A DNA stretch of 40,803 bases from NCBI GenBank assembly GCA_013150955.1, contig JAADJD010000056.1, forward strand, positions 1 to 40,803, written 5' to 3'. Shown here one piece after another: positions 1-14,998 of this stretch. The notes beneath the pieces are model-generated. The model worked only from the letters and a program-made list of their open reading frames with translations, was not told the origin of the DNA and did no database searches. The stretch comes from Calditrichota bacterium (GTDB lineage Bacteria; Calditrichota; Calditrichia; RBG-13-44-9; J042). Position 1 is the stretch's first letter. Every line of letters starts with the position of its first letter. Position numbers and translations under genes: made by a program.

Positions 1-94
1 ATTGCAATTCCCAAATAATCAATAGGTTAAAATAATTATTTTCTATTGCTACGCATTAGAAATTTCGTTCTATTGCGTAATCTGGGTTAAATAT
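1..94. repeat. Remnant of dispersed repeat family A (right end)
   Basis: The segment ends with TTGCGTAATCTGGGTT, which matches the right end of the family A elements found elsewhere in the window. The left part is AT-rich and not recognisable. No open frame of interest is seen here. Confidence 0.4.
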
Positions 95-117
95 CACATA
101 GTGGAATGAAACAAAAA

Positions 118-278
118 TAATGCATTAAACCGCGAATCCCGCGAATGAACCCCAAAAATATCAATAAAATCACGAATAAATCTCGAAGCGAATTTTCATC
201 CAGATCTAATCTAATGGATTTTATTGTTTTTATTTGTGTTTATTCGTGCAATTCGTGGTCTACTGCATAATCTGGGAT
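118..278. repeat. Dispersed repeat family A, copy 1
   Basis: About 160 bp, non-coding. The left end reads AATGCATTAAACCGCGAATC and the right end has AATTCGTGG followed by CTGCATAATCTGGG, an imperfect inverted repeat of the left end. The core contains the family's CATCCAGAT motif and an AT-rich stretch. The architecture (terminal inverted repeats, no ORF, many copies) is MITE-like; that label is inference. A short family B remnant (GGCTAAAGCCTGCACCTACC) follows near 360-380. Confidence 0.75.
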
Positions 279-1017: not shown

Positions 1018-1470
1018 CAGTTGGCAGTTGACAGTATGCAATGGTAGGCGCGGGCTTTATGCCCAATCCCCAGTTGGCAGTGGGCAGTATGCAGTAGGCA
1101 ATGGTAGGCGCGGGCTTTATGCCCGCGTAAAAGTTGGCCCATTTAGAAAACGCAGGCTAAAGTCTGCGGTGACCCTGATCATAATCAATGAAACGAAATA
1201 AGCCTCCTCCCTGGCGGGCGAAGGCTACCGACTCTGGAGAGTTGGGCTACACACGTAGCCGCGGGATTTATGTCCTATTACCAGTAAGCAGTTGGCAATA
1301 GGCAATGGTAGGCGCGGGCTTTATGCCCGCGTAAAGGCAGGCCTATCTGGAAAACGCAGGCTAAAGCCTGCGGCTACCCTGACCATCATCAATGAAAAGA
1401 AACAAGCCTTCGCCCTGGCGGGCGAAGGCTACCGACTCTGGAGAGTCGGGTTACAATAGAAAATGCAGGC
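1018..1470. repeat. Dispersed repeat family B, mosaic of GC-rich hairpins
   Basis: Two to three tandem, partly diverged units made of short hairpins. The modules are GCGGGCTTTATGCCCGC, GCAGGCTAAAGCCTGC, CTTCGCCCTGGCGGGCGAAG and CCGACTCTGGAGAGTCGG, linked by phrases such as CAGTTGGCAGTAGGCAATGG. The same modules recur in opposite orientation at 14481-14998 and 31991-32680. The segment is non-coding; short frames across it are accidental. Confidence 0.8.
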
Positions 1471-1643: not shown

Positions 1644-1678
1644 ATCAGACAAGCGTCCCCGTGCTCTGCCGGATTTCG

Positions 1679-1743
1679 GTCTACCAGAAGGCAAACAGGC
1701 CAGCCTGGCGGCAGACAAACCATCCTGACCTCAACTTTCAGAC
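1679..1743 (-). repeat. Eroded CRISPR repeat remnant at the leader-distal end
   Basis: The segment begins GTCT and ends CTTTCAGAC like the array repeat. In between is an unrelated stretch containing the hairpin GCCAGCCTGGC. The length (65 bp) and the position next to the first recognisable spacer-like sequence (1744) suggest a decayed interrupted repeat. Confidence 0.35.
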
Positions 1744-2713
1744 ATGTGGGGTATAGGGGTATAGGGGCATACGGTATAGGGTAAAATAAACGTCTCAATC
1801 CCTCTGGCGCCCGTGGACGGGCGACATCCCAATCGTGCCTGGATGGCACGATTATCGGGATGAAAAGCGGGGCTTTTCAGGCATATGGGGTATAGGGGTA
1901 TAGGGATATACGGTATAGGATAAAATAAACGTCTCAATCCCTCTGGAGCCCCGGACGGGCGACATCCCGATCGTGCCCGGATGGCACGAGTATCGGGATG
2001 AAAAACGGGGCTCTTCAGACATGTAGGGTATAGGGGTATAAGGGTATAAGGCAAAACAAACGTCTCAATCCCTCTGGAGCCCCGGAAGGGCGACATCCCG
2101 ATCGTGCCCGGAGGGCACATTTATCGGGATGAAAAACGGGCTCTTCAGGCATGTAGGGTATAGGGGTATAAGGGTATAAGGCAAAACAAACGTCTCAATC
2201 CCTCTGGAGCCCCGGACGGGCGACATCCCGATCGTGCCCGGAGGGCACGTTTATCGGGATGAATAACGGGGCTCTTCAGACATGTAGGGTATAGGGGTAT
2301 AAGGGTATAAGGCAAAACAAACATCTCAATCCCTCTGGAGCCCCGGAAGGGCGACATCCCGATCGTGCCCGGAGGGCACATTTATCGGGATGAAAAACGG
2401 GGCTTTTCAGACCCAACCCTGGCTACTGGCAAGTATGTTTCCTACGATAACGATTCTCAACCCCCTCTGCTTGCCCAGACTGGCAAGCACTCCGGCACCG
2501 GACAGGCATGCTTCTTCGCGGGATGAAAAACGATACTCTTTAGACGTCCCAGCTGGATACAAGACAACGGTGGAGTGAATAGTCTCAATCCCCTCTGGCG
2601 CCCGTGGACGGGCGACATCCCGATCGTGCCCGGACGGCACGTTTATCGGGATGAAAAACGGGGCTCTTCAGACACACTGGTGGTGGCAAACGGAGATTAT
2701 GGCAAAGAATATC
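1744..2713 (-). CRISPR. Leader-distal part of the CRISPR array with seven hairpin-interrupted repeats
   Basis: Seven repeats (1792-1882, 1931-2020, 2062-2150, 2192-2281, 2323-2412, 2452-2545, 2582-2673) keep both outer parts of the array repeat. Each is split after CCTCTG by a 55-56 bp insert (1807-1862, 1946-2000, 2077-2131, 2207-2261, 2338-2392, 2470-2525, 2598-2653). Six inserts share sequence: a small GCCC/GGGC hairpin and then a longer one with outer arms ATCCCGAT and ATCGGGAT and inner arms CGTGCC and GGCACG. The insert in 2452-2545 differs in sequence but again forms hairpins. The spacer-like segments are 48, 48, 41, 41, 41, 39, 36 and 40 bp. The three 41-bp ones are identical and the two 48-bp ones are related to them, which points to tandem amplification. 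Frames across this region are artefacts. Confidence 0.9.
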
Positions 2714-4426
2714 GTCTCAATCCCCTCTGAAAAACGGGGCTTTTCAGACCTTATTGCGCGGCAGGTGGCACCGGTGATCCAATCAGCAACGTCTCAATCC
2801 CCTCTGAAAAACGGGGCTCTTCAGACGAGATCGACATTGGTGTCTTTCACAGTCTCAAAAGTTTGGGGTCTCAATCCCCTCTGAAAAACGGGGCTCTTCA
2901 GACTCTACAATGGCCTCCTTGATGTACTGTACCGCGAAAGTCTCAATCCCCTCTGAATAACGGGGCTTTTCAGACGAATATCTTACAAAGGACGCTTTGC
3001 GTCCTTTCTTTGTAAGTCTCAATCCCCTCTGAATAACGGGGCTTTTCAGACGTTGATCGGGAAAGAAGTGCAAGCGTCGCTGGTCATCGAGGAGTCTCAA
3101 TCCCCTCTGAATAACGGGGCTTTTCAGACACAATGATGAAGCTAAAAAGAGCGGCGACGTTCATGAGTTGAGTCTCAATCCCCTCTGAATAACGGGGCTT
3201 TTCAGACGTTTTATTGTCCGGGCGTTGGGAAAGTGTATTTTTCGCTTGTCTCAATCCCCTCTGAATAACGGGGCTTTTCAGACACAAATCAAAAAGCGTG
3301 CCACAACCTAAATCCAGTTAAAGTCTCAATCCCCTCTGAATAACGGGGCTTTTCAGACGTAACCAATTTTTTGAAGAAAAAGCAAATTCCCGATTCACCT
3401 TCAGTCTCAATCCCCTCTGAATAACGGGGCTTTTCAGACCGTCAACGGAATAGGCGCTTAAACGTATATTTGCAATCATGTCTCAATCCCCTCTGAATAA
3501 CGGGGCTTTTCAGACAGCCTTGACCGGCGAAATTGGTCATTGAAATTGGTCTATACGTCTCAATCCCCTCTGAATAACGGGGCTTTTCAGACAAGTTAAA
3601 ATTGATATTCCAGGAGCAAGAGCTATTGTGAAAAGTCTCAATCCCCTCTGAATAACGGGGCTTTTCAGACCTAAGGGGCAGGTCGTCCGTCAAAAAGCAT
3701 ATGTGCCGTCTCAATCCCCTCTGAATAACGGGGCTTTTCAGACCGAAAGGGATTGAAAGAGGGTTGCCAGCGCCGACGGCTGAGTCTCAATCCCCTCTGA
3801 ATAACGGGGCTTTTCAGACGGATTTACCATCTACTTCGGATCGGGATATTGGAAGGGAGGTCTCAATCCCCTCTGAATAACGGGGCTTTTCAGACATTTT
3901 CCAGTCATCCCAAGGCATTGAGCCCGGGAGTAAAGGTCTCAATCCCCTCTGAATAACGGGGCTCTTCAGACATTACCCATCACCAATTTGTTGTTGTTGT
4001 GCCTCCCCCCGTCTCAATCCCCTCTGAATAACGGGGCTCTTCAGACTGAGCGATAAACTCGAAGTATTCACATTCTTCGGGCAAGGTCTCAATCCCCTCT
4101 GAATAACGGGGCTCTTCAGACTGATTGTTTCCGATTTATGCTACGTTGATAATTCTGGTACTGTCTCAATCCCCTCTGAATAACGGGGCTCTTCAGACCG
4201 GAATATCCATCTGAGGCAACAACGGTTAAGGAAAAAATTGTCTCAATCCCCTCTGAATAACGGGGCTCTTCAGACAACTAAATGAGTGGGGGAAAGTTCT
4301 CGACAAAAACGAGTCTCAATCCCCTCTGAATAACGGGGCTCTTCAGACGGGGTTGAGTTGGGGGACTGGTCTCCCTCGCCTGGTGGCCCTGTCTCAATCC
4401 CCTCTGAATAACGGGGCTCTTCAGAC
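2714..4426 (-). CRISPR. CRISPR array, 23 intact 36-bp repeats
   Basis: The repeat starts GTCTCAATCCCCTCTG on the plus strand, continues AATA, and ends ACGGGGCTTTTCAGAC. Repeats start at 2714, 2791, 2868, 2940, 3016, 3094, 3172, 3248, 3323, 3404, 3480, 3557, 3635, 3708, 3784, 3860, 3936, 4011, 4086, 4163, 4240, 4313 and 4391. Spacers are 36-45 bp, mostly 39-42, and appear unique. Read on the minus strand the repeat ends GGGGATTGAGAC, close to the common ATTGAAAC-type crRNA 5' handle, so transcription is minus. Variants are phased: AAAAAC at 2714-2903, AATAAC with CTTTTC at 2940-3895, AATAAC with CTCTTC at 3936-4426. The decayed end is on the left and the AT-rich leader on the right. The spacer length and handle would suit type I or III; no cas gene is present to decide. 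Confidence 0.98.
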
Positions 4427-4487
4427 AGCACCCTCGTAAATGCCGATATTGCGTAAGCTCCAGAGCCGTTTGCGTGAACACCCCCCA

Positions 4488-4505
4488 ATTATAACAAATG
4501 TTATA
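4488..4505 (-). promoter_or_regulatory. Extended -10 box overlapped by a palindrome, CRISPR leader
   Basis: On the minus strand TGTTATAAT is a perfect extended -10 (TGnTATAAT), about 60 bp before the first repeat. It overlaps TATAACAAATGTTATA (4490-4505), two 7-bp arms around a 2-bp centre, which looks like an operator for a dimeric regulator. No good -35 is seen at normal spacing. A promoter here is likely; the operator is inference. Confidence 0.5.
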
Positions 4506-4646
4506 CCCGCTTTACCAAAAATTCCACCTAACATATTGAAAATAAAATGCGTAAAGCTTGTTTTTGTAAGTCCTTTATTTTCAATGGATAAAACATTCGT
4601 TATATTTCGTCCTTTTCCTTCAATGCATTTTTGATTCCCACCCATC

Positions 4647-4675
4647 ATTTTACCGAATTTTTCTCAATTTTTCAA
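4647..4675 (-). promoter_or_regulatory. Second promoter-like pair in the CRISPR leader
   Basis: On the minus strand TTGAAA is followed after exactly 17 bp by TAAAAT, a good sigma-70-type match. It would start transcription about 210 bp before the first repeat. Confidence 0.45.
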
Positions 4676-4709
4676 TACCCATCAATGGCTTTTGCGAATT
4701 TTCGGCTTT

Positions 4710-6053
4710 CTACGCTTCAATCCCAAACCGTTCCATCATGGAGTACAGGCGGCGACGGGTAATGCCCAGCAGTTGCGCCGCACGAGTCTTGTTTCCCCCG
4801 CTCTTCTCCAGCGCCTGACAAATCAAATCCCGTTCCAGCTCATCCAGCACAATGCCTTCCTCGGGCAATTCAAAGGGATGCGATTTTCCAGACGTCCGTC
4901 GCAACTGTCCCGGCAAATCCTGAATATCGATAACGCCGTTGCTTAAAATGGCTGCTCGTTCAATCACATTGCGTAACTCCCGCACATTTCCCGGCCAGTC
5001 ATACTCCATCAAACAGGCCAGCGCCTGTCGGGTGATGCTGTGGGCGGCGGTCTGTTCCAGAAAAAAATGCACCAATTCCGGAATATCCTCCTTGCGATCC
5101 CGTAGAGGAGGTAACGAAATAGGAAACACGTTCAGCCGATAATACAGATCCTCCCGGAACTGACCGCGGGAGACCATCGCCTCCAGCGGCTGATGGGTTG
5201 CGGCAATGATGCGAGTATCCACAATCAGGCGCTCGCTGCTGCCCAATCGATACACTTCTTTGTTTTGCAATACCCGCAGCAATTTGGCCTGGGTGGAAAG
5301 GCTCATGTCGCCAATCTCGTCCAGGAAGATGGTACCCCCGTTGGCCTGTTCGAACTTGCCGGCGCGCCGCTGAGTTGCCCCGGTAAAGGCACCCTTTTCG
5401 TAACCGAACAGTTCGCTTTCCAGCAGGGTTTCCGGCAACGCCGCGCAATTGACGGTAACAAACGGCTTACGGGCACGGTGGCTTTGTTGATGAATGGCCT
5501 GCGCAACCAGCTCCTTACCGGTACCGCTTTCGCCCAGGATTAACACGGTCACGTCGGTTTCGGCGGCCTTCTGGATTAAGCGAAACAGCTGCTGCATCTT
5601 CTGGCTTTTGCCTACCATTCCGCGGAAAATAAGCGGCGGTGTCTGTTGTTCTGTCGATTCGGCTTTAGCCAGGCGCTGCTTCTGCTCCAGTATGCGCCGC
5701 AACCGCAATACCAGTTCATCCATTTCGAATGGTTTGATCAGGTAATCATGGGCGCCTTTTTTCAGCGCCTCTACCGCTGTTTTCTGGGTGGCGTAGGCGG
5801 TCATGATCACCACTTCCGTTCGGGGAAAACGGGATTTGATGGCTTCCAGCAACTGCAACCCATCCATTCGATCCATGCGCAGATCGGTCACCACAATTTC
5901 CACGGGATGTTTTTCCAGAAATTCCAGTGCGGCCGCACCCGACGTACAATATGCCGCCGGTAACTGTTCCAGTGCCAGGGCCGCCTGCACCACCTTGCAA
6001 AACTTTTCTTCATTGTCCACAATTAAAATGCGGGGTGTGTCCATGACCACCAT
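4710..6053 (-). CDS. NtrC-family sigma-54-dependent response regulator
   Basis: 447 aa with the full three-part layout. The receiver domain (1-120) has the acidic pocket as DNEE and the phospho-acceptor Asp57 in VVTDLRM. The AAA+ domain (about 145-370) has Walker A GESGTGKE (174-181), the sigma-54-contacting GAFTGA loop (221-226) and Walker B FLDEIGD. A Fis-type helix-turn-helix (NKTRAAQLLGITRRRLYSMM) forms the C-terminus. It should activate sigma-54 promoters after phosphorylation by a histidine kinase. The gene starts 1 nt after the stop of the TPR gene 6055-7212, so the two are translationally coupled. No kinase gene adjoins it, so its partner is elsewhere. A second in-frame ATG (residue 4) is an equal start candidate. 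The CRISPR leader begins just after its stop. Confidence 0.95.
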   Translation of the reverse strand: MVVMDTPRILIVDNEEKFCKVVQAALALEQLPAAYCTSGAAALEFLEKHPVEIVVTDLRMDRMDGLQLLEAIKSRFPRTEVVIMTAYATQKTAVEALKKGAHDYLIKPFEMDELVLRLRRILEQKQRLAKAESTEQQTPPLIFRGMVGKSQKMQQLFRLIQKAAETDVTVLILGESGTGKELVAQAIHQQSHRARKPFVTVNCAALPETLLESELFGYEKGAFTGATQRRAGKFEQANGGTIFLDEIGDMSLSTQAKLLRVLQNKEVYRLGSSERLIVDTRIIAATHQPLEAMVSRGQFREDLYYRLNVFPISLPPLRDRKEDIPELVHFFLEQTAAHSITRQALACLMEYDWPGNVRELRNVIERAAILSNGVIDIQDLPGQLRRTSGKSHPFELPEEGIVLDELERDLICQALEKSGGNKTRAAQLLGITRRRLYSMMERFGIEA

Positions 6054-7212: not shown

Positions 7213-7359
7213 CTATTTTTAACCGCCCAACTTAATCTCGCTCACCGAATCAATGACTTATCAGGTGCCGATCGGTGATTTTCCTCACACCCCAGATGTA
7301 TCAGCAGATACCCCAGCGTGCCCTTTGCAATCGAGACGTGGAGTATCCAGCGGTTCTCC

Positions 7360-7698
7360 TCAGGGAACGGGACTGCCCGTATCCGATCGTTCCCTCTGTT
7401 TTAATCGTCGCAAATCGTTTTGAAAGGTCAATTGATCGGTGAAAATTTCTTTCAGCGCGGTTAATAACGCGGCGCTTAATTCTCGGTTCAGCCGATAATG
7501 CACCCAGATGTCCACCCGCCGGTCTTCCACCCAGCCCATGCGTTTCAACATGGCCAGATGCCGGGAAACGGTGCTCTGAGGCAACTGGAGCACTTCGACC
7601 AGATCCATAACGCGCAAAAAACGGGAATGGAGAAGCAGGTGAATAATCCGCAATCGTGTTTCGTCGCCCAGCGCCTTAAAGAAATCCACCAGATTCAT
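7360..7698 (-). CDS. ArsR-family winged-helix transcriptional repressor
   Basis: 112 aa. Residues 4-75 are a typical ArsR/SmtB domain: FKALGDETRLRIIHLLL at the start and the recognition helix QSTVSRHLAMLKRMGWV, followed by the wing EDRRVDIWVHYRL. The classic ELCVCDL metal site is replaced by RFLRVMDLVEVL, with no cysteines, so an arsenic/cadmium alpha3 site is absent. The signal could be another metal site, redox or a small ligand. The gene diverges from two small lipoprotein genes (7819, 8077) across 120 bp, and ArsR proteins often control a divergent neighbour. The tail after residue 95 (RLKQRERSDTGSPVP) looks disordered. Family assignment is firm, ligand unknown. Confidence 0.9.
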   Translation of the reverse strand: MNLVDFFKALGDETRLRIIHLLLHSRFLRVMDLVEVLQLPQSTVSRHLAMLKRMGWVEDRRVDIWVHYRLNRELSAALLTALKEIFTDQLTFQNDLRRLKQRERSDTGSPVP

Positions 7699-8464: not shown

Positions 8465-8822
8465 TATCCCGGATTTTGCATTTACCTACGAATTACCCGA
8501 ATTCATACGAACAAAAATAATCCCAAATTCAGCTTGAGACCGTGATTCACGTGAACAATCCCCGATTATACATGAGACCACAAATGACACGAATTCACAC
8601 AAACAAACCCAGATTATGCAATAGCCTACGAATGACACGAATGAACACCAACAAAAATAATAAAGTGCACTTGATTCTATCTGGATGAAAATGTTTTCCC
8701 GGATACATTCGCTATTTTATTGATTTTTTTCAAATTTATTCGCGTGATTCGTGGGTTAACGCTTTATTGGAGTTTATTTTGTGATCATTCGCGCCCTTCG
8801 TGGTCTAATGCACAATGTGGGA
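8465..8822. repeat. Compound dispersed repeat family A, copy 3 plus flanking half elements
   Basis: A complete copy at about 8606-8785 (left end AACCCAGATTATGCAATAGC) is flanked on its left by two partial left arms (8465-8605: CCTACGAATTACCCGAATTC, ACCACAAATGACACGAATTC) and on its right by a partial right arm (CGTGGTCTAATGCACAATG, ending about 8820). This looks like elements inserted into or next to older elements. No gene is seen in 8404-8890. Confidence 0.7.
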
Positions 8823-10163: not shown

Positions 10164-10643
10164 TTATATCGATAATTTGATTTCCAGAACCTCGTACCGC
10201 AGGGTACCTGCCGGTACCTGGATCTCCACCACATCCCCAACCTTTTTCCCCAGCAGTGCCTTACCCACCGGGGAGGTGGTGGAAATCTTTTTTTGCTTAA
10301 AATCCGATTCTTCTGGCGACACCAGGGTGTATTGCACCTCTTGATTGCGTACCAGATCCTTCAGCAAAACGGTGGTGTAGATGGAAACCTGATCGTCGCT
10401 AAGATCCTTCTTGTTAATAATCTTTGCCCGCCGCAGGGTTTCTTCCAGTTGTGCAATGCGGTTTTCCAGTAAAGCCATGGCCTCCTTTGCGGCGTGGTAC
10501 TCCGCATTTTCCCGCAAATCGCCAAAATCCCGTGCCTCGGAAATCTTCTGGGCGATCTCGGGACGCTTGACCGATTTTAACTCCTCCAACTCCTTCTTCA
10601 ACTTATCATATCCTTCCTGAGAAAGATAGATAAATCCGCCCAT
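10164..10643 (-). CDS. greA: Transcription elongation factor GreA
   Basis: 159 aa, the normal length for GreA. The N-terminal coiled coil (residues about 5-77) carries the conserved tip EARDFGDLRENAEYHAAKEA, whose acidic residues coordinate the second Mg2+ in the RNA polymerase active site and stimulate cleavage of backtracked RNA. The C-terminal FKBP-like domain includes SPVGKALLGKKVGDVVEIQVPAG in two adjoining parts. The start is set by GAGGAGG six nt before ATG. The gene begins 9 nt after the stop of rel, so the two are cotranscribed. Confidence 0.97.
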   Translation of the reverse strand: MGGFIYLSQEGYDKLKKELEELKSVKRPEIAQKISEARDFGDLRENAEYHAAKEAMALLENRIAQLEETLRRAKIINKKDLSDDQVSIYTTVLLKDLVRNQEVQYTLVSPEESDFKQKKISTTSPVGKALLGKKVGDVVEIQVPAGTLRYEVLEIKLSI

Positions 10644-10652
10644 ATATCCTCC

Positions 10653-12878
10653 TCAATTAAGTTTTTTTCGACTTCTTACAGCGGCTTCGATGCGTTCGAC
10701 GCTGAGGACACCTTTGATCTTATTAATCGAATTGATGACCCGCGTTAAATGGGGTAAATTCTTGACTTCGATAATCAATTTGCCTTTCACCAGCTTGTCC
10801 TTGACCCGCAAATCCACATGCAGAATATTGGTATTATGATTGGCGATGGCCTGGGTAATATCCCGCAACAGATTCTTGCGTTCTTCCCCTAAAATGGCCA
10901 GCTGCACGCGGAATTCTTCCTCAGCCTCCACCGTCCAGTTCACCTGAATCGTGCGGTCTTTTTTATCCACCAGCCGCTGCATGTTGGGACAATTCACCCG
11001 GTGAATGGTAACCCCTTTTCCGCGAGTGATGTAGCCAATAATGTCGTCTCCCGGAACCGGTTGACAGCACTTGCCGATGTGCACCACAATGTTGTCGATA
11101 CCTTCCACCTGAATGGCCGAATGTTTCCGATTTCGCCGAAGAATTCGCGAAAGAATGGACGCCTTTTCTTCTTTTGGCTGATCCTCGGAAACCACGCTCA
11201 ACAGTTTCTCGATGGACACCTCGCCGCGACCCACGGCGGCTTTCAGATTGGTGGGATCTTCAAAGTTAAGTTTCTTGGCAATTTCTTTAAATTTTTCTTC
11301 CGTCAACTTGATGCGAAATCGCTTGAAATACTTGGTAATGATTTCCTCACCCAGCTTCACGCTGTGCTCAAACTGAACCTCCCGCAAATATTTTCGAATG
11401 TGATGCCGGGCTTTACTGGTTTTCACAAACGTCAGCCAATCCTGGTGCGGATGCTGGTTCACGCTGGTGATAATCTCCACCAGATCCCCGGAATGCAACT
11501 GATATTTGAGGGGGACAATACGCCCGTTTACCTTGGCACCAATACAATGCATGCCAATGTTGGTATGCACCGCAAAAGCAAAATCCACCGGCGTTGCCCC
11601 CTGCGGCAACCGAATGACGTCCCCCTTGGGGGTAAACACAAACACTTCGTCCTGGTAAAGGTCGATTTTCAGGGACTCTAAAAACTCCTGCGCATCCTGC
11701 ATTTCGTTATCGCTGTACTGTTCCAGCAACTGACGCACCCAGGTCAATCGGGAATCGATATCGTCCTTTTTACGGTCAGGCGTCCCCTCTTTATACCGCC
11801 AGTGAGCCGCAATTCCCATCTCCGCAATCCGGTGCATCTCCCAGGTGCGAATCTGGATTTCCACCATGTGACCGGTCTTGTCCACCACCGTGGTGTGCAG
11901 ACTCTGATACCCATTAAACTTGGGGCGGGAAATGTAGTCCTTAAACCGCTCAAACACAGGGGTATACAGATTGTGCACCAGTCCCAGTACGTAATAACAT
12001 TCTTCAATTTTTTCCACAATAATGCGAATGGCAAAGAGGTCGTAAATTTCTTCCAGCGGTTTATTGCGCAACTTCATCTTCCGGTAAATGGAGTACAGGT
12101 GTTTGGGGCGACCGGTAACCTCTGCTTTAATCTTGTGTGCTTCCAGCTCCTTCTTAATGGGTTCGATCACCGCCTGAATATAGGCCTCGCGTTCTTCTTT
12201 CTTTTGATTCAATCGCCGAACCAGTTCCACATACTGCTTATTTTCCAGATACTTAAAGGCCAGATCTTCCAGCTCACTCATCACCTGATGCATACCAAAC
12301 CGGTGCGCCAGGGGAGCATACACATCGCGGGTTTCCAGGGCAATGCGCAAGCGGTTCTTTGCCGGCAAATGTTGCAGGGTTCGCATGTTGTGCAACCGGT
12401 CGGCAAATTTGATGATGATGACCCGGACATCTCTGGCCATGGACAACAGCATTTTGCGGAACGTTTCCGCCTGACGCATCTCGTAACTCAAGTTCTTCCT
12501 CCCACTCAAAACCGTTATTTTGGTCACCCCATCCACCAGCTGGGTCACCTGCTTGCCGAATTCCTCTTCAATATCCTCCAGCGTAAAGCCGGTATCTTCC
12601 ACCACATCGTGCAGCAGCCCAGCGGCAATGGTGGTGCTGTCCATGCGCATGTCGGCCAGGATGTCCGCCACGTTCAAACAATGTTCAAAATACGGTTCAC
12701 CGGAAAACCGATACTGATCCTTATGTGCCCAGAGACCAAACTCGTAGGCGCGGGTTAACAGCCCTTTATTGCAATTGGGGTTATATGAACAAATCTTCTC
12801 CAGCAGCTGTTGAAAAAATGGATCAAATTGTTCCCGTAATTTTACGTACTTTTCTTCTTTGACATCGATCGATAACAT
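10653..12878 (-). CDS. rel: Bifunctional (p)ppGpp synthetase/hydrolase Rel/SpoT
   Basis: 741 aa, full length for the long RelA/SpoT family. The N-terminal HD hydrolase domain is intact (His52, His66 in YFEHCLNVADIL, and His90-Asp91 in GLLHDVVEDT, the Mn-binding set). The synthetase domain follows at about 240-360 (GRPKHLYSIYRKM, IYDLFAIRIIV, FNGYQSLHTTV). The TGS domain is near 415-475 (VFVFTPKGDVIRLPQGATPV), then a conserved-cysteine segment (KCCQPVPGDDIIGYITRGKG) and a C-terminal ACT domain. Both activities should therefore be present, so the protein makes and removes the stringent-response alarmone. It heads the operon with greA, the PspC protein and the LiaF-like protein. It has no clear strong ribosome site. 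Confidence 0.97.
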   Translation of the reverse strand: MLSIDVKEEKYVKLREQFDPFFQQLLEKICSYNPNCNKGLLTRAYEFGLWAHKDQYRFSGEPYFEHCLNVADILADMRMDSTTIAAGLLHDVVEDTGFTLEDIEEEFGKQVTQLVDGVTKITVLSGRKNLSYEMRQAETFRKMLLSMARDVRVIIIKFADRLHNMRTLQHLPAKNRLRIALETRDVYAPLAHRFGMHQVMSELEDLAFKYLENKQYVELVRRLNQKKEEREAYIQAVIEPIKKELEAHKIKAEVTGRPKHLYSIYRKMKLRNKPLEEIYDLFAIRIIVEKIEECYYVLGLVHNLYTPVFERFKDYISRPKFNGYQSLHTTVVDKTGHMVEIQIRTWEMHRIAEMGIAAHWRYKEGTPDRKKDDIDSRLTWVRQLLEQYSDNEMQDAQEFLESLKIDLYQDEVFVFTPKGDVIRLPQGATPVDFAFAVHTNIGMHCIGAKVNGRIVPLKYQLHSGDLVEIITSVNQHPHQDWLTFVKTSKARHHIRKYLREVQFEHSVKLGEEIITKYFKRFRIKLTEEKFKEIAKKLNFEDPTNLKAAVGRGEVSIEKLLSVVSEDQPKEEKASILSRILRRNRKHSAIQVEGIDNIVVHIGKCCQPVPGDDIIGYITRGKGVTIHRVNCPNMQRLVDKKDRTIQVNWTVEAEEEFRVQLAILGEERKNLLRDITQAIANHNTNILHVDLRVKDKLVKGKLIIEVKNLPHLTRVINSINKIKGVLSVERIEAAVRSRKKLN

Positions 12879-14480: not shown

Positions 14481-14998
14481 CGCGGGCGTGAATCCCGTGC
14501 ATATCAATTGTAGCCCGACTCTCCAGAGTCGGTAGCATCCGCCCGCCAGGGCGAAGGCTTGTTCGGTTTCATTGATCATAGTCAGGGTAGCCGCAGGCTT
14601 TCACCTGCGGTTTCCAGATAGGCCGGCCTTTGCGCGGGCGTAAAGCCTACCACTGCCTACTGCCAACTGCTAACTGAAAATTGGGTATAATGCCCGTGCC
14701 TACCGTTGCCTACTGCCAACTGAAAATTGGGCATAAATCCCGCGGCCACATTTGTAACCCGACTCTCCAGAGTCGGTAGCATCCGCCCGCCAGGGCGGAG
14801 GCTTGTTCGGTTGCATTGATCATGGCCAGGGTAGCCGCAGGCTTTAACATGCGGTTTCCAAATGGGGCCGGCCTTTGTGCGGGCGTAAAGTCTACCACTG
14901 CCTACTGCCAACTGCTAACTGAAAATTGGGTATAATGCCCGCGCCTACCGTTGCCAACTGCTAACTGTAAACTGGAAATTGGGCATAAAGCCGGCAGC
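14481..14998. repeat. Dispersed repeat family B, second block
   Basis: Two tandem units share GTAGCCCGACTCTCCAGAGT, CGCCCGCCAGGGCG, GTAGCCGCAGGCTTT and CTACCACTGCCTACTGCCAA. The orientation is opposite to the block at 1018-1470. The remainder up to 15168 shows no gene; it contains a C-rich run near 15137 and two copies of AACCGGG. Confidence 0.8.

Follow-up and report, generated by a model that had tools for sequence, protein, structure and literature searches.

Hairpin-forming insertions within leader-distal CRISPR repeats of a Calditrichota bacterium and its relatives

Results

The window array and its interrupted repeats

The stretch of DNA analysed here (the window) comprises the 40,803 nucleotides of contig JAADJD010000056.1, from the Calditrichota bacterium assembly GCA_013150955.1. 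It contains a CRISPR array, in which near-identical repeats at regular intervals separate unique spacers, one end is marked by a leader, and seven repeats are interrupted. Its features are listed below.

1792..4426, minus strand: CRISPR array, read right to left; 1792-2673 holds 7 interrupted repeats, 2714-4426 another 23 of normal form (36 bp)
about 1653..1743, minus strand: decayed outermost repeat X (unit 0), split by another hairpin insert
1806..1861, minus strand: insert A, unit 1, in repeat 1792-1882
1945..1999, minus strand: insert A, unit 2, in repeat 1931-2020
2076..2130, minus strand: insert A, unit 3, in repeat 2062-2150
2206..2260, minus strand: insert A, unit 4, in repeat 2192-2281
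2337..2391, minus strand: insert A, unit 5, in repeat 2323-2412
2469..2524, minus strand: insert B, unit 6, in repeat 2453-2545; divergent, without a significant overall fold
2597..2652, minus strand: insert A, unit 7, in repeat 2582-2673; unrelated spacers of normal length on both sides
1757..2412, no strand assigned: tandem array of period 131, 5 copies, each made of an interrupted repeat and a GGGTATAGGGGTATA 'spacer' that hardly varies
4427..4490, minus strand: leader-side flank, conserved by alignment with a second array on contig C18

As transcribed from the minus strand, the repeat reads GTCTGAAAAGCCCCGTTATTCAGAGGGGATTGAGAC, and its 3' end is ATTGAGAC, a typical 5' handle of a crRNA. 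The orientation of this handle, together with the flank shared with C18 from 4427 onwards, places the leader at the right, with transcription running from right to left; the seven split repeats therefore lie at the leader-distal, oldest end of the array. Both halves of GTCTCAATCCCCTCTGAATAACGGGGCTTTTCAGAC are retained in all of them, separated by 55-56 bp, as originally predicted, and the insertion point is constant, with ...CCTCT on its left and GAATAACGGGG on its right (the GAATAAC... side). The insert lies within the repeat and not beside its halves, the latter being a possibility that the original prediction had left room for. Six inserts out of seven are alike (insert A), while that of unit 6 differs (insert B).

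Insertions are regarded as very scarce in CRISPR loci, and the open-access literature yielded no report of repeats interrupted in this way, in line with the earlier statement that none was known. No cas genes were found among the larger ORFs scanned in the window; elsewhere in the genome, contig C12 carries a type I-B locus and contig C5 one of type III that includes Cas6-RT and Cas1. Contig C12 ends inside the type I-B cas1 (L103:1-300), and an adjoining array may be absent from the assembly.

Folding of the split repeats

The inserts fall, as had been proposed, in the loop that the CCCC/GGGG stem of the repeat closes. The predicted fold of insert A is well below that of shuffled sequences (z about -4.4), which bears out the hairpins described for the six similar inserts; insert B contains a 7-bp hairpin and folds no better than its shuffles (z = 0.3). 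The expectation that the native stem should survive was borne out in part: in the minimum free energy structures it is kept only in unit 7 (2582-2673) and in the C18 copy, whereas in units 2, 4 and 5 (1931-2020, 2192-2281 and 2323-2412) the partner of the repeat's (GA)GCCCCG arm is CGGGGC(TC), located in the insert. The base of the stem is the usual feature recognized by Cas6, and crRNA processing may, on this ground, tolerate the insert. Sequence variation within insert A leans to the loops, 3 of 8 unpaired columns being variable against 3 of 30 paired ones, a difference that is not significant (p = 0.09). An Rfam search returned no family at gathering score, the best hits being low-scoring matches to CRISPR repeat families and an sRNA match attributable to chance. 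Readings as an intrinsic terminator, a tracrRNA-like or a retron-like element were dropped, as the hairpins are not followed by a U-run, and no sign was seen of an antirepeat or of a reverse-transcribed RNA, respectively.

Tandem amplification and a copy in a second array

The spacers among the first five units are near-copies of each other (41/41, 41/41, 44/48 and 35/48 identical positions). These shared spacers and the period of 131 indicate that units 1-5 derive from one amplified unit, so that the seven split repeats are not independent cases. Units 6 and 7 have unrelated spacers, those of unit 7 being normal and unique.

The second array, on C18, has 21 normal repeats and a single copy of insert A, located in its last clear repeat and identical to that of unit 1 at 52 of 56 positions and to that of unit 7 at 54 of 56. 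In both arrays repeat X, with its other hairpin insert, follows about one spacer length past the last clear split repeat; the two homologues match at 38 of 49 positions in the aligned block, and no further occurrence of X was found in the genome. A deletion, CCC for CCCC, is common to the C18 copy and units 1-5 and is not found in unit 7; insert A therefore occupies repeats of at least two different origins. Since it is conserved between the arrays at 52-54 of 56 positions, against 38 of 49 for repeat X, and the spacers are unrelated, insert A has spread, or undergone homogenisation, at a later time than the sequence around it. Within its own genome it was found only at the tails of the two arrays of the window's repeat family, with no copy outside CRISPR arrays, and it is absent from 191 other genomes, where matches were short and weak.

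The sequence is tandem, palindromic and of metagenomic type, and several array contigs end nearby, features that could raise the suspicion of faulty assembly or binning. An artefact of this kind is extremely improbable. The insert is found on two contigs of the genome with different flanks, its copies differ among themselves, and comparable terminal inserts occur in three independent public assemblies. The split repeats are not an assembly artefact, an outcome that the original prediction had held open.

Degenerate, word-like micro-repeats (GGGTATAGGGG, AAATACAAAATA, CTTTGTGAG and CCCTTGCCCCTTG) adjoin split repeats in several Calditrichia genomes, at window 1757-2412, in L183 after 14260, at the tail of L175 and at the L102 inserts.

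Split terminal repeats in related genomes

In the relatives of the same class, arrays near Cas1 genes were scanned for split repeats. In genomes G023, G024 and G018, two hairpins, unrelated in sequence, were found to split the loop of the last CCCCGTTATTC-type repeat; a G022 array and a second G023 array, both found by searching for the insert, are also loop-split. All together, the last CCCCGTTATTCAGAGGGG repeat is loop-split in 7 arrays from 5 Calditrichia species and 4 families, the window's genome included. Three of these 7 do not count as independent: the window served as the starting point, and two others came from the insert search; the C18 array, G018, the first G023 array and G024 were found without selecting for inserts. 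A loop-split tail is present in every array of the main repeat family with a visible tail. Internally split repeats, proposed as a search target, recur in related genomes, with unrelated insert sequences.

The insertion point, GTTATTC^AGAG on the transcribed strand, is identical in three lineages (the window's genome, G022/G023 and G024), and lies on the opposite side of the loop in G018. Another G022/G023 array carries palindromes of 19 and 37 bp at a third point, also in internal and leader-proximal repeats. In L170, CGTC-type palindromes are found between the last two degenerate repeats. Three further repeat families (L166, L169 and L179) have unsplit tails. The folds of the relatives' inserts had z values of -2.8 (G024) and -2.0 (G023); between G023 and G022 the inserts are, by eye, about as conserved as their flanks.

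A split-repeat pattern, run over 385 genomes, gave true matches only in the window's genome, G022, G023 and G024; the other matches were read as chance, a reversed control having given similar scattered ones. A stricter pattern, run over 84,980 species, gave 3 matches, all of them in these Calditrichia relatives, and none in viral contigs. The exact normal repeat was found in no other GTDB species and in no viral contig.

A related element outside CRISPR

In G023, a 53-bp double-hairpin element (L229:1499-1551, contig C208; similar elements in L230 and L225, G022) is inserted in an rhs gene, where it separates GARYY from DPAIGRW (GARYY^DPAIGRW), a stretch of the rhs consensus. The flanks share one frame only when the 53 bp are removed. 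Over nearly its whole extent the element can be aligned with the G023 CRISPR insert, which has a few copies in that genome, some of them outside CRISPR. CGCCAGAGGCGGGCAGG, a palindrome similar in kind to those in CRISPR repeats, also occurs in non-CRISPR sequence. Judged from these sequences, the data point less to a component made for CRISPR than to small dispersed palindromes, for which CRISPR repeats would be one landing site out of several.

A second repeat family in the same genome

Five arrays, belonging to two repeat families, were found in the window's genome, and all 5 have split repeats near the tail. The C5 arrays (L102, corresponding to C5:48000-63395, at 3203-4850 and 10600-11710) and one C34 array (L164) share the repeat GTTTGAAATGGGCCTGTCGGCAGGCGATTGAGAC, and their leader-distal repeats are split in mid-repeat. 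The insert is here an unstructured, CCTTG-rich stretch (z = 0.2), with the repeat core GGGCCTGTCGGCA duplicated at its flanks. One C5 array has split repeats alternating with normal ones, its spacers being unique, and the C34 insert is long enough to be alternatively read as a repeat, a constant spacer and a repeat. Given unstructured inserts and a duplicated core, this family needs another mechanism than palindrome insertion, and the simplest reading is that its inserts spread by recombination via the duplicated core. The Cas6-RT-Cas1 frame of the same region (L102:6896-9829, plus strand) has one in-frame stop codon; its G001 homologue is an uninterrupted frame of 983 aa, 65% identical over 968 aa.

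Discussion

Comparison with known elements

Oldest repeats, at the trailer end, are known to gather mutations and indels (CRISPRDetect, PMC4869251). The changes described here also affect the oldest, leader-distal repeats, but consist of a complete, structured insert of 55-56 bp at one exact point, with nearly intact repeat halves, in several repeats of two arrays. Mobile elements in CRISPR loci have been reported as rare, and include ISH4 and a 132-bp MITE in euryarchaea, and ISC1359 in a spacer (PMC4390879). Insert A resembles these cases as a non-autonomous-looking element within a CRISPR locus; unlike ISC1359, it lies in the loop of a repeat, is repeated, and belongs to a phenomenon recurrent across the class. 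It has two internal hairpins, no inverted termini and no evident target-site duplication, its flanks sharing at most a TG dinucleotide, and does not conform to a MITE. In locus 121 of Sulfolobus tokodaii, two repeats are likewise longer than their neighbours, by 18 bp, but the next spacers are shorter and the unit length is kept (PMC4390879), whereas here the spacers do not compensate, and each unit is longer by about 55 bp.

Palindromic elements dispersed along genomes offer a closer parallel. REPs are abundant in their genomes, and insert A, found only in two CRISPR arrays of its own, lacks the many dispersed copies expected of them. It falls within the size range of a REP or REPIN (about 20-60 bp) and is hairpin-forming, as its z of -4.4 indicates; the GTAG or CGTC foot tag is absent, insert A starting with GGAG or GGCG on the plus strand. 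The inserts and REP/REPIN elements (PMC8266576, PMC3733652, PMC3116915), whose partners are the RAYT transposases, are both short, G+C-rich hairpins, often paired, and relatives are found at unrelated loci in G022/G023. A further likeness is to the Rickettsia palindromic elements (named in PMC3733652), hairpins of roughly 50 bp that lie inside genes, as hairpins of this size do here in functional sequence, the G023 rhs gene included. They differ in that they show no recognised sequence kinship to the inserts, and that the 53-bp rhs insert shifts the frame.

Origin of the inserts

The structure is real and unusual, and most likely results from the insertion of palindromes that were then preserved and multiplied where arrays are stable, at their tail. 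More specifically, we assign a probability of about 0.55 to REP-like palindromic mini-elements having inserted in the repeat loop, been retained at the array tail and then been amplified locally. Short elements made of two tandem hairpins (about 50-56 bp) would land in the loop of ageing, leader-distal repeats, moved perhaps by a transposase or by the processing of single-stranded DNA. Amplification probably came after insertion: one interrupted repeat, next to the last spacer of the array, would have been multiplied with that spacer by tandem duplication, producing units 1-5, while unit 7 and the C18 array may have received the insert by renewed insertion or by gene conversion. Inserts would persist at the tail, where terminal repeats escape the spacer turnover and the selection at work on the leader side. 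The effect on crRNA production would be minor, the last crRNAs probably carrying an enlarged 3' hairpin. Palindrome insertion is favoured by the element in the G023 rhs gene, by the occurrence of CGCCAGAGGCGGGCAGG outside CRISPR, and by the G022/G023 array with inserts at a third point and in internal and leader-proximal repeats, unexpected for a dedicated end cap. Against it count the lack of non-CRISPR copies of insert A in its own genome, unlike the abundant REPs, the absence of evident target-site duplications or terminal inverted repeats, the need of another mechanism for the second repeat family, and the finding of split terminal repeats in every visible tail of the main family, many for chance.

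This last finding also speaks for the main rival, a conserved element at the end of the array, in which the last repeat would be selected to hold a pair of hairpins in its loop; the pre-crRNA would then terminate in a stable, branched 3' structure with a protecting or end-marking role. The hairpins mostly differ in sequence across the 7 arrays, 5 species and 4 families, and four arrays besides the window were found without insert selection; the z of insert A and the leaning of its variation to loops go in the same direction. However, the loop bias is not significant, and palindromes can self-correct through intrastrand templating; insertion points and sequences vary between families, insert B lacks a significant fold, no U-run follows the hairpins, the G023 and G022 inserts are, by eye, about as conserved as their flanks, and in one array leader-proximal and internal repeats are also hit. 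We regard such an element as credible, if unlikely; its specific form for the Calditrichia CCCCGTTATTCAGAGGGG arrays, in which the Cas6 stem is kept, and two loop hairpins cap the pre-crRNA and set the end of the array, is a shade less probable still.

It is quite improbable that a split repeat was once leader-proximal and was copied by Cas1-Cas2 at each acquisition, normal repeats taking over after a precise loss of the insert. This would fit the oldest block of C27, made of interrupted repeats, and unit 7, which is flanked by normal unique spacers and whose repeat variant (AAAAAC) runs on into the next repeats. Yet the near-identical 'spacers' of units 1-5 are no acquisitions, unrelated spacers being absent there, split and normal repeats alternate in C5, and independent precise losses would be required in two arrays. 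Moreover, spacer acquisition measures repeat length in several type I and II systems, and a repeat of 91 bp should not be copied faithfully.

The suggestion that the inserts alter processing or create a new RNA element is not supported by the present data. The reading changes with three points absent from the original prediction: the split repeats are the oldest ones, they are mostly tandem copies of one unit, and loop insertions at array tails recur across the class with unrelated sequences. Recurrent insertion at one point of the loop, at array tails in four or more families of a single class, suggests either that hairpin-forming repeats are a target for small palindromes, or that array ends have an unrecognised RNA structure. 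Array-finding programs that permit only small indels would stop such arrays too early.

Other repeated sequences were observed in the window's genome. A dispersed repeat, bounded by AACCCAGATTATGCATTA and containing the motif CACGAATGAACAC, lies near several of its CRISPR loci (window 1-270, 1470-1640 and 8554-8655; L037, about 7350-7640; L102, about 2580-2930), and composite intergenic repeats, at window 1018-1455 and 14508-14992, contain CAGTTGGCAGT words together with GCGCGGGCTTTATGCCCGCG and CCGACTCTCCAGAGTCGG palindromes.
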